Source: Promethearchaeota archaeon (GTDB taxonomy: Archaea; Asgardarchaeota; Lokiarchaeia; Sigyniarchaeales; SOKP01). From it: DNA of 64,000 nucleotides. Each line of letters opens with the position of its first letter. The stretch's first letter is position 1. The stretch is taken from assembly GCA_016839705.1 (NCBI GenBank), contig JAEOTR010000048.1, positions 24,779 to 88,778 on the forward strand, read 5' to 3'. The position numbers and the translations under genes are program-made. Shown one piece after another: positions 17,812-21,986 of the stretch. The notes under the pieces were generated by a model. That model ran no database searches. It saw nothing but the letters and a program-made list of their open reading frames with translations, and was not told the DNA's origin.

Positions 17812-18150
17812 CTAAAAGAATTTCTTAACATCAAACCGATAAGCTGCTCTTGTTAAGCCAACATAATTGTCCGTAATCTTGTAAAACAGTTTTTCATTAA
17901 CAAGTTTTTTCTGTAAATAGTTATTTTTAATCAAATGATTTAAAGAATTAATCATGGTTCCTAACGTAACCGCGCCAACAAATCCATGTTGTTTCTTGGT
18001 AACCCTAATTAATTCAAGTTCAGAATGCCATTGTCCATCAAGAAGAGCCCTTAAAATATCATTCTTAATAGGGGTTTTTATATCTTTAATTTTATTGAAC
18101 AAAACTGAATATATAGGATTATAATATCTTTCCTGCTCTTTTTCTTCCAT
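17812..18150 (-). CDS. Winged-helix (wHTH) DNA-binding protein
   Basis: 112 aa; NDILRALLDGQWHSELELIRVTKKQ...TLGTMINSLNHLIKNNYLQKKLVNEKLFYKIT wHTH pattern. Confidence 0.7.
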   Translation of the reverse strand: MEEKEQERYYNPIYSVLFNKIKDIKTPIKNDILRALLDGQWHSELELIRVTKKQHGFVGAVTLGTMINSLNHLIKNNYLQKKLVNEKLFYKITDNYVGLTRAAYRFDVKKFF

Positions 18151-18341: not shown

Positions 18342-19463
18342 CTAAAGTAAATTAGGTGGAATCCCCTCATCAAAATATTTTACACGGGATATCCAGTTTT
18401 CTGAAAATTCCGGGATCTTTGCTAATATAGAACCTCCAATCCATACAGAAAAAGTTCTCTCTTGAGGAGCAATAATTCTTACGCTCTGGTTTTTTTTCTT
18501 CCTCCTGGCTAATTCAAGTTCTAATTCCTGATACATTCTTGATTTTAAATTAGGAAACATTGAAGAACCACCACTTAAAAAAATATTATTTAATAATTCT
18601 GGTCGAATATCCAAATCACAAGCTTCTATTACATCCAAAATTGCCACCGGTAGGGAATCCTCCTCTAATTCAGGAGATGGATTAAATAAAAGCTCTGGAA
18701 CTATAAACCGTTCATTATGCAATGAGATTGTTGAACCATCTGGTAAAGAATAGTCTTTATTATACTGTTCACTTCTTTTCAAATCCTCTTTATAATCTAA
18801 AGAAACAAAACAAGCTTTTTCTTTTAAAACTCTTACTAATTCTCTTCGAATAGAAGAATCAACCGACCAGCCAATAGATTCCAAGATTTTTTCCATATAA
18901 TGAGTCAGTACCCTACCCCCAATTTCTAGAATTCTTACCGCATGATTTAATTTATATCCTTCATAAATGGGTACAATTCTGGTATTGCTATCTCCAATTT
19001 CAATAATTAAACCTGTTTGAAATCCCCCTGAATATAAAGTAAGCATCGAATCTAAAACAGGATAAAAATTCATACACTGAAGTCTTCCTAAAAAAAGTTC
19101 AAAAATTTTTTCCAAATCCTTACGGGGGAATAAGGGATGGACGGCTAGTAGGACATTAACTAGAGAGGGATCAACTCTTAAATTATAGAAAATATAATCC
19201 ACAATGTTTTCAAAATGCTTCCAATCAATAATAATCCCTTTTTCTATTGGATGAAAAATCTTATAAAGGCCAATAGATTGGATTTCATCTCCTACATAAA
19301 GTTCATCTTCTCGACTTTTAGCAGTTGAATAATCAATGCTTACACTTTGATATTTCGGTTTCCCAACCATCGTTAAGAAAACTTGAGCTGGAGAATCCTC
19401 TCCTGCAAATCCTATTTTAGTAGAAAATTGGCCAATATCAATAACAACAGTAAGATTTACCAT
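18342..19463 (-). CDS. Actin-related protein (eukaryotic-like actin family)
   Basis: DIGQFSTKIGFAGEDSPAQVF, YVGDEIQS, LTLYSGGFQTGLIIEIGDSNTRIVPIYEGY, LPDGSTISLHNERFIVPELLF, NNIFLSGGSSMFPNLKSRM, IIAPQERTFSVWIGGSILA. Confidence 0.95.
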   Translation of the reverse strand: MVNLTVVIDIGQFSTKIGFAGEDSPAQVFLTMVGKPKYQSVSIDYSTAKSREDELYVGDEIQSIGLYKIFHPIEKGIIIDWKHFENIVDYIFYNLRVDPSLVNVLLAVHPLFPRKDLEKIFELFLGRLQCMNFYPVLDSMLTLYSGGFQTGLIIEIGDSNTRIVPIYEGYKLNHAVRILEIGGRVLTHYMEKILESIGWSVDSSIRRELVRVLKEKACFVSLDYKEDLKRSEQYNKDYSLPDGSTISLHNERFIVPELLFNPSPELEEDSLPVAILDVIEACDLDIRPELLNNIFLSGGSSMFPNLKSRMYQELELELARRKKKNQSVRIIAPQERTFSVWIGGSILAKIPEFSENWISRVKYFDEGIPPNLL

Positions 19464-19805
19464 TCTTCCCTTCGAAAATTGCTTATTATTTAATTTCTAA
19501 TTAATATTATAATCCTAATTATTTTAATTAGTATTACACTACCAAAACTTTCTAGAAGACCTTTAATATAAAACTCTTTTTTTTCCTATAAAAAATCTTA
19601 TACTATCAATACGATAAATTTATCTAAAAGTACATTAAAATAATTGATATTTTTCCTTCAAAGGTTTCCCCTCAACTAAATCATAAATAACAAGCGTACT
19701 ATAATACATGTCCAAAAATGTTAAGATATATATTAAAAGGAGTTTTAAATGATATTACAACAAATGAAATTCTAATTCAAATGAATTAAATAAGTGATTT
19801 TAAGT

Positions 19806-20354
19806 ATGGAAAAAAGATACATACCTCTTTTTATAATGCTGGGATTTATTATCATTCTGATTATAACCGCATTTGTCGCTGCTGTTTTTGGCGTTCCGAT
19901 CATAGCATTAGATCAGTCAGAAATCTCGATCGCATCATTTGATTATTGGTCATTAGGACATTTCCTATGGGGAGTTGGACTTTTCGTTATATTCTTCACA
20001 TTTGGTTGGATTATCAAAAATTTAACGGATAGCCCAAAAGATCCTATTAATGAACCAGAGGTTAGAAGCTTCATCATATATTGGATAATTATTCTTATTA
20101 TTGCGGGTCTTTGGGAAGTTGTTGAAAATACAATTCTTCATATGGTTAGTATCAAAGTTAAATTCGACAGTGCGGCAAATATAATAACTGATATAATTAC
20201 ATGGGGCATTGGTGGATGTGTGAGTTGGTATATGACAGATCTAATGTTTTTAAGCGACAAATATCTCAGAGCTTATTACCTCTATGGATTTATGTGCCTC
20301 GCAATGGGTATAATCATATTCGTATTCTTTGGTTTTGTTACAACTAATTACTAA
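19806..20354 (+). CDS. Four-TM-helix integral membrane protein
   Basis: Hydrophobic segments IPLFIMLGFIIILIITAFVAAVFG, FLWGVGLFVIFFTFGWII, FIIYWIIILIIAGLWEVVE, FMCLAMGIIIFVFFGF; GTG alternative start at 19794. Confidence 0.75.
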   Translation: MEKRYIPLFIMLGFIIILIITAFVAAVFGVPIIALDQSEISIASFDYWSLGHFLWGVGLFVIFFTFGWIIKNLTDSPKDPINEPEVRSFIIYWIIILIIAGLWEVVENTILHMVSIKVKFDSAANIITDIITWGIGGCVSWYMTDLMFLSDKYLRAYYLYGFMCLAMGIIIFVFFGFVTTNY

Positions 20355-20555
20355 CCTCATTTTTTTTTCTTTCGTGGTGGATTTCATTTAAAATAGGAAA
20401 ATTTATTCTTTAGTTACAAGAATGCAATTTTCAGTTTTTTCGAATAAAAAGAATAAGATTTGAAAAGCTTTTCTAATGAGTATGTTATATTTCTGTTGAT
20501 TTTATTGCTTTGGAAATATAATAGGTTGAACTAGACAGCCCATTCGATGGATTGA

Positions 20556-21287
20556 TTATTCTCCGCGCATAATCTTTTTCAAACGGTTAAGCTCATCGAG
20601 CATCTCATCACGAAGAGAGCTTAAACCACCCCCCGTTTGAGGGGCTGCTGCTGCCGGAGGTGCTCCAGGTGTTTGAGGTGGACTAGCTGGAGGTGTGGCT
20701 CGTGGACCACTTGGAGGTGCGGCTGGTGGACCACTTGGTCTTTTCGCGAACGCAGGAGTTGCTGTTGGAGGTATAGGTGGTGCACCAGAGCTTGGAGCTT
20801 TAGGTGGTGCACCAGAGCTTGGAGCTTTAGGTGGTCCCGATGGAGGTAATTTTGGAGCAGGTGGTAGACTGCCGGCTTTCGGTGGGCCGCTAGGCGGTGC
20901 ACTCGGTGGCGCACTAGGAGGCCCTGCAGGAGCCTTAGGCGGGCCACCACTAGTAGGAGGTACTGGTGCTGCGGTTAGTGATGCTGGTGCTGTTGTTGGT
21001 GCTGCTTGGCTTTCAGCACCCCCACTTAAAAGAGAAAACAAAGTACTAGCTGCTGCAGTTTTGGCGGTCCCCGATGATGAGGCAACAATCTTTTTCGAGG
21101 AAGTACTAACAGTTTGGACGTCTTCTCCAACAGTAATTTCCTTTAAGTCTTTTTGGGCTTTTGATAATGACTTGATAAAATCATTAATTCCTTTAACTGT
21201 TTCTCCTAAGTCATCAGCGAGGCTAGTTAAGCCTTTTTTCATAAAATTAATAACACGTTCGATCTTTTTTTGTTCTTTTGAAACCAC
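20556..21287 (-). CDS. Proline-rich low-complexity protein with short N- and C-terminal helices
   Basis: GPPKAP/GPPSAPPSAPP/KAPSSGAPP polyproline stretch; N-terminal EQKKIERVINFMKKGLTSLADDLGETVKGINDFIKSL; C-terminal LSSLRDEMLDELNRLKKIMRGE. Confidence 0.85.
   Translation of the reverse strand: MVSKEQKKIERVINFMKKGLTSLADDLGETVKGINDFIKSLSKAQKDLKEITVGEDVQTVSTSSKKIVASSSGTAKTAAASTLFSLLSGGAESQAAPTTAPASLTAAPVPPTSGGPPKAPAGPPSAPPSAPPSGPPKAGSLPPAPKLPPSGPPKAPSSGAPPKAPSSGAPPIPPTATPAFAKRPSGPPAAPPSGPRATPPASPPQTPGAPPAAAAPQTGGGLSSLRDEMLDELNRLKKIMRGE
20776..20829. repeat. Two perfect tandem copies of a 27-bp unit encoding KAPSSGAPP
   Basis: ggtggtgcaccagagcttggagcttta at 20776-20802 and 20803-20829. Confidence 0.9.
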
Positions 21288-21710: not shown

Positions 21711-21986
21711 GTGTTCAAAATACCAAAACGAGAACTTTTTATTAAGCGGGTCTATGAGATCGTCAATGAGCTTAAAATCCCATTAATTGATGAGAGAGTA
21801 TATGACAAAGTAAATTTCAATACGGGAGCTTCAATCGCTAACGTAATTTTTAGATTCGAGGAAGATGAGTCAGTAATCCGAGGGTTTCTTGGTCTTGCGG
21901 AATATTTTCACACTGTGGTGATCAAGAAAAAAGACGAGTTCTATATTCCGCATGCTTCAATTTTATTTCGTTTGCTGAGCGCATGA
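21711..21986 (+). CDS. Small hypothetical protein
   Basis: 91-aa ORF with GTG start; no recognised domain. Confidence 0.5.
   Translation: MFKIPKRELFIKRVYEIVNELKIPLIDERVYDKVNFNTGASIANVIFRFEEDESVIRGFLGLAEYFHTVVIKKKDEFYIPHASILFRLLSA

Follow-up and report, generated by a model that had tools for sequence, protein, structure and literature searches.

In the genome of a Lokiarchaeial archaeon (assembly GCA_016839705.1), a proline-rich protein is encoded two genes away from an actin-related gene, which raises the question of whether this protein is an actin regulator and, if so, through which of its parts it acts. An initial annotation had proposed a profilin- and actin-regulating scaffold with a C-terminal helix that oligomerises as in Ena/VASP. 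Here we examine that proposal in the window, by which we mean the whole stretch of DNA analysed, 64,000 nucleotides of contig JAEOTR010000048.1, and among related Asgard genomes.

The gene and its predicted architecture

The scaffold gene lies at 20556..21287 on the minus strand and encodes 243 amino acids from a GTG start. The open reading frame is real, and its translation contains the repeats quoted in the initial annotation as well as the C-terminal sequence LRDEMLDELNRLKKIMRGE. Orthologues L010, L012 and L016 have an ATG at the matching position, which supports the GTG start, and the 39 distinct homologous sequences found in Lokiarchaeia have conserved ends and a linker that is not conserved, indicating that this is not a chance reading frame. 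Close homologues are present in 33 of 39 related genomes, counting that of the window itself. The rise in GC content that had been remarked upon does exist (0.55 over 20500-20999 versus about 0.30 around it). The excess is confined to the first and second codon positions; at third positions the GC content is 0.25, similar to the 0.22-0.37 of neighbouring genes. The rise therefore reflects amino-acid content only, and foreign DNA was ruled out as its source. No domain above the cut-off was found in a Pfam scan of the whole protein, and no description of the family was found in the literature searched, in Pfam or in NCBIfam. Matches to MCPsignal in Pfam (0.29) and to TatA in NCBIfam (0.054) were far under the cut-off and were dismissed as chance resemblance between coiled coils.

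An AlphaFold2 model built from an alignment of 26 sequences contains a helix over residues 4-51 (mean pLDDT about 90), a weak helix over residues 75-87, a disordered linker and a helix over residues 222-240 (about 90). The centre rich in G, A, S and P is composed as first described and is flanked by a predicted helix at each end, and its disordered proline-rich arm is predicted to span about 130 residues. The long N-terminal helix (21135..21278, minus strand) has conserved bulky hydrophobic positions, and its profile, A1, matches across Lokiarchaeia, f7, f18 and f25. This helix is probably an oligomerisation coiled coil, and it is a likelier oligomeriser than the helix at the other end of the protein. 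The weakly predicted helix corresponds to a short conserved segment, TAAASTLFSLLSG (21021..21059, minus strand), in which A79, A80, L83 and L87 are invariant in alignment A1. Neither a signal peptide nor a transmembrane segment was found in the protein (the maximum 19-residue Kyte-Doolittle mean is 0.73), and the extracellular or cell-wall setting that would have spoken against the original proposal gives way to an intracellular one. Conservation of the termini in Asgard relatives, which had been suggested as a further check, is very strong. We have high confidence in this architecture, taken alone.

The C-terminal helix across the Asgard archaea

The invariant part of the scaffold is its C-terminus, LRxEMLxELxRLKx[IL]M, which forms the putative docking helix LRDEMLDELNRLKKIMRGE (20559..20615, minus strand) and coincides with the AlphaFold2 helix at residues 222-240. 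Of 227 Asgard genomes, 196 matched a profile of the 28 C-terminal residues at E<=0.1 and 172 did so at E<=1e-3; as chance matches are expected at the looser threshold, genomes were counted at the stricter one. No match was obtained in a reversed-sequence control of 0.9 million residues, versus 141 matches at 15 bits or more in the real set. Among 45 distinct 17-residue cores, free variation is seen only at positions 3, 7, 10, 14 and 17, which make up one exposed stripe, while L1, R2, E4, M5, L6, E8, L9, R11, L12 and K13 are kept. The fixed residues, which include the charged E4, E8, R11 and K13, span approximately 220 degrees of the helix, or about 60 percent of its surface.

In the matched Asgard proteins the motif lies 1-7 residues from the C-terminus of proline-rich proteins whose N-termini are unrelated. 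Two architectures with this ending are found in different lineages: a soluble type with an N-terminal helix, in Lokiarchaeia families f1-f7 as well as f18, f19, f20 and f25, and a membrane-anchored type with a transmembrane segment and a helical region, in f8, f10, f12-f15, f17, f28 and f29. Proteins of the membrane-anchored type (L117, L118, L119, L144 and others) usually occur once per genome. Unrelated proteins carry the motif as well, in one copy or in tandem copies. Among others, its core was found in a Sec23/24-like protein (L134:3365-5041, Pfam Sec23_trunk 3.7e-8) and in a small Zn-finger protein (L140). In the Lokiarchaeial Sec23/24-like proteins, L134 and the similar L136:2-1510, the motif is C-terminal to a beta-sandwich region. 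A Zn-ribbon family (CPxCGxxNH; L131:9156-10430, L132:8717-9916 and L156:1228-1689) carries one or two scored copies in the N-terminal part, and one of its members belongs to the window's own genome. No relative of the motif was found in viral contigs, and a profile search of the PDB yielded no credible relative, its matches being short and attributable to chance (LERLKTIMR in IL-4, repeats in 3jqh).

An ending shared across the phylum by soluble and membrane-anchored proline-rich proteins probably serves as a peptide that docks onto one common partner, and we hold this view of the C-terminal helix with reasonable confidence. The initial annotation had instead likened the helix to the oligomerisation coiled coil of Ena/VASP. 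In such a homo-oligomer the C-terminal helices would self-associate and the proline arms would recruit profilin-actin. The helix is indeed predicted to be amphipathic, as that comparison had it, but the invariant, charged E4 and R11 fall outside a normal coiled-coil core, some 60 percent of the helix surface is fixed, and the motif stands singly or in tandem on proteins that are otherwise unrelated. A charged, invariant face of this width on unrelated carriers fits a docking peptide better than self-association, and from its sequence the C-terminal helix is disfavoured as an oligomeriser of the Ena/VASP type.

The proline-rich linker and the neighbouring genes

The second element of the Ena/VASP-like reading, the recruitment of profilin by the proline arms, bears on the linker. 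In 37 linkers, PPP is avoided (19 occurrences versus 140 expected by shuffling), and the canonical profilin/ABM-2 site XPPPPP (X = A, G, L or S) is present in none of the 37. The linker in the window has no PPP at all and is built of spaced PP doublets, in the family most often GPP, so that the word polyproline here can only refer to such doublets. Within the otherwise variable linker only LPPAPKLPP and FAKRP are conserved. The first (20841..20867, minus strand) has its core pattern in 29 of the 37 linkers versus at most one in shuffles; the second is FAKRPSGPP in the window (20724..20750, minus strand), and FAKR is found in 24 of the 37 versus a shuffle mean of 1.1 and a maximum of 5. PSAP/PTAP is also enriched in the linkers (61 versus 11.5).

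A profilin gene and three actin homologues are present in the window's genome, an actin-related gene is linked to the scaffold gene, and heimProfilin and thorProfilin bind VASP polyproline weakly (PMC8410842), all of which would suit profilin recruitment. Loki profilins, however, are reported to lack such binding (as cited in PMC8410842), and the composition of the linkers also argues against it. The initial proposal of a profilin and actin regulator therefore holds in part: the protein is intracellular, scaffold-like and linked to an actin-related gene, but a profilin scaffold is unsupported by the motif content of its sequence, although the profilin gene and the conserved LPPAPKLPP leave some room for one. 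Taking helix and linker together, we regard an Ena/VASP-like homo-oligomer as unlikely.

The actin-related gene (18342..19463, minus strand) encodes a protein of 373 amino acids (Pfam Actin 9.4e-89) that shares 43% identity with the genome's own Lokiactin. The third actin homologue of this genome (L159) is a 508-aa frame unlike Lokiactin. The scaffold gene does lie two genes from the actin-related gene, with a single unrelated open reading frame between them (19794-20354, plus strand), which encodes a multi-pass membrane protein of 186 amino acids. This frame has no homologue in the loci of relatives and is probably a local insertion. In 29 of the 29 loci of family f1 with enough flank, a few of which are the same locus counted twice, the scaffold gene has the actin-related gene downstream of it in the same orientation. 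About half of these loci have it directly next to the scaffold gene, and in most of the rest a PIG-L deacetylase gene intervenes (for example L001:1757-2512 and L024:10779-11555); the deacetylase gene is found in many relatives and is absent from the window. A 112-aa protein (17812-18150, minus strand) with no Pfam or NCBIfam match holds its place beside the actin-related gene in the 29 loci.

Outside f1 the two genes are not adjacent. In f2, orthologues of the actin-related gene (47-58 percent identity) sit at other places in the genome. Families f4 and f7 keep the scaffold but have no apparent orthologue, and their best matches are at the level of Lokiactin. The actin-related protein is therefore not an obligate partner of the scaffold. 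The linkage is real but local to f1, and part of it may be ordinary conservation of gene order. Actin was found in 45 of 45 high-quality genomes and the motif in 41 of them, and because both are nearly universal their co-occurrence is weak evidence. Among families whose Lokiactin is standard, 13 of 14 have the motif, versus 2 of 6 among those whose actin is divergent, a difference in favour of an actin partner (p=0.014, with phylogeny and genome size as confounders).

It is possible, at somewhat less than even chances in our estimation, that the scaffold is the same kind of tether but uses its C-terminal helix to bind a different pan-Asgard hub, the actin gene being a mere neighbour. Such a hub could be an ESCRT or Vps4 MIT domain, a factor in trafficking or a regulator of small GTPases. 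Both in age and in distribution the motif goes beyond its linkage with the actin-related gene, and it is also carried by the Sec23/24-like and Zn-finger proteins. The MIM motifs of ESCRT-III proteins are C-terminal helices that follow a disordered linker, and the scaffold shares this layout, with its helix at the extreme C-terminus. However, the charges of the scaffold consensus are off the MIM1 pattern in a comparison made by eye, none of the examined frames with the motif was recognised as an ESCRT-III protein, and the data point to no specific hub.

The most widely conserved neighbour of the scaffold, spanning several Asgard classes, is a divergent gene for a 91-aa protein (21711..21986, plus strand), found beside it in f1, f3, f6, f7, f18, f20 and f25. 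The GTG-start frame in the window is longer than the ATG-start orthologues. The phyletic profile of this protein follows the soluble architecture, as it is present in 10 of 11 families of the soluble type versus 0 of 9 of the transmembrane type (p ~1e-4, kinship ignored). The exception is genus g53 of f28, a transmembrane lineage that has the 91-aa gene, with a soluble A1-like protein encoded within 6 kb. The membrane-anchored type has no common neighbour other than housekeeping genes, one of which resembles rpiA by eye. The AlphaFold2 model of the 91-aa protein (pLDDT 92) gave nothing above Z 3.9 with Foldseek and VIA-align, and the matches were mostly to a VOC-like half-sheet; the order of strands and helices is reminiscent of Roadblock, by topology only. 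This pairing, together with the adjacency of the two genes in distant classes, would suit an entropic spacer or condensate-forming protein whose function lies with the 91-aa protein and not with actin. That explanation leaves unaccounted for both the invariant C-terminal helix and the presence of the motif on transmembrane proteins in lineages without the 91-aa protein, and we consider it improbable.

A possible mechanism and its likeness to known systems

The reading that we favour, tentatively, is that the scaffold is a cytosolic multivalent tether and that its terminal helix engages a shared partner, most plausibly the groove of an actin-family protein, in the manner of arcadin-2. The N-terminal helices would oligomerise and so present several arms, the proline-rich arm would act as a flexible spacer, and each terminal helix would dock into a groove of a protein common to the phylum. 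Elsewhere among the Asgard lineages the N-terminal helix would give way to a transmembrane segment, and the same arm and helix would then act from the membrane. The most plausible partner would be the hydrophobic groove of an actin-family protein, namely Lokiactin, and in Lokiarchaeia perhaps that of the neighbouring actin-related protein too, while LPPAPKLPP would bind a further partner. A bolder and more doubtful extension, for which we would give about one chance in three, is that in Asgard archaea LRxEMLxELxRLKx[IL]M serves as a short linear motif that binds actin, independent of WH2, and tips proline arms that are either membrane-anchored or carried by soluble oligomers.

If true, this family would be the first of its kind, a set of tethers or nucleation scaffolds for Asgard actin that is phylum-wide and older than the split of the classes. 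The localisation and regulation of Asgard actin is an open question that bears on how the eukaryotic cytoskeleton arose, and a single, nearly invariant 17-residue peptide offers a cheap and decisive reagent for identifying the partner. Even with a partner other than actin, a conserved Asgard interaction hub would emerge that is undescribed in the libraries used.

Among actin regulators, the proteins of the WASP/WIP/verprolin group also combine a proline-rich arm with a short amphipathic helix. The WH2 core RxxLLxxI and the scaffold's RxxMLxxL have the same spacing when compared by eye with an N-WASP segment. In the scaffold, however, LKK follows after two residues without a linker, three residues too early and within a continuous helix, and the arms lack XPPPPP runs. 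Nine motif peptides gave no match to Pfam WH2 (PF02205) at E<=10, versus 1.4e-8 for the N-WASP control, which rules out a WH2 protein by profile; there was no other credible Pfam match to the motif either. The F-actin motif of ITPKA and Lifeact, VxxLxxxFE (PMC13364712), does not fit the sequence. Ena/VASP proteins share the proline-rich centre and the C-terminal helix, but the scaffold has no EVH1 domain in the Pfam scan and no proline runs of the profilin type, its likely oligomeriser is N-terminal, and its C-terminal helix is a phylum-wide motif.

The closest layout is that of arcadin-2, from the crenactin (arcade) cluster, which is encoded near an actin-family gene and ends in a conserved helix of about 17 residues, preceded by a linker that is not conserved (PMC5173319). 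The linker is unstructured, and the 17 residues beyond it bind to the groove of crenactin with a Kd of 31 nM (PMC5173319). Linkage to an actin-family gene is likewise found for the scaffold in 29 of 29 f1 loci and is absent outside f1. The likeness is one of layout, from which binding of the Asgard helix to actin would follow by analogy; the linker of arcadin-2 is not described as proline-rich, whereas the Asgard motif is phylum-wide and carried by many proteins. By this analogy, the scaffold may work like arcadin-2 or like a tether of the WASP family.
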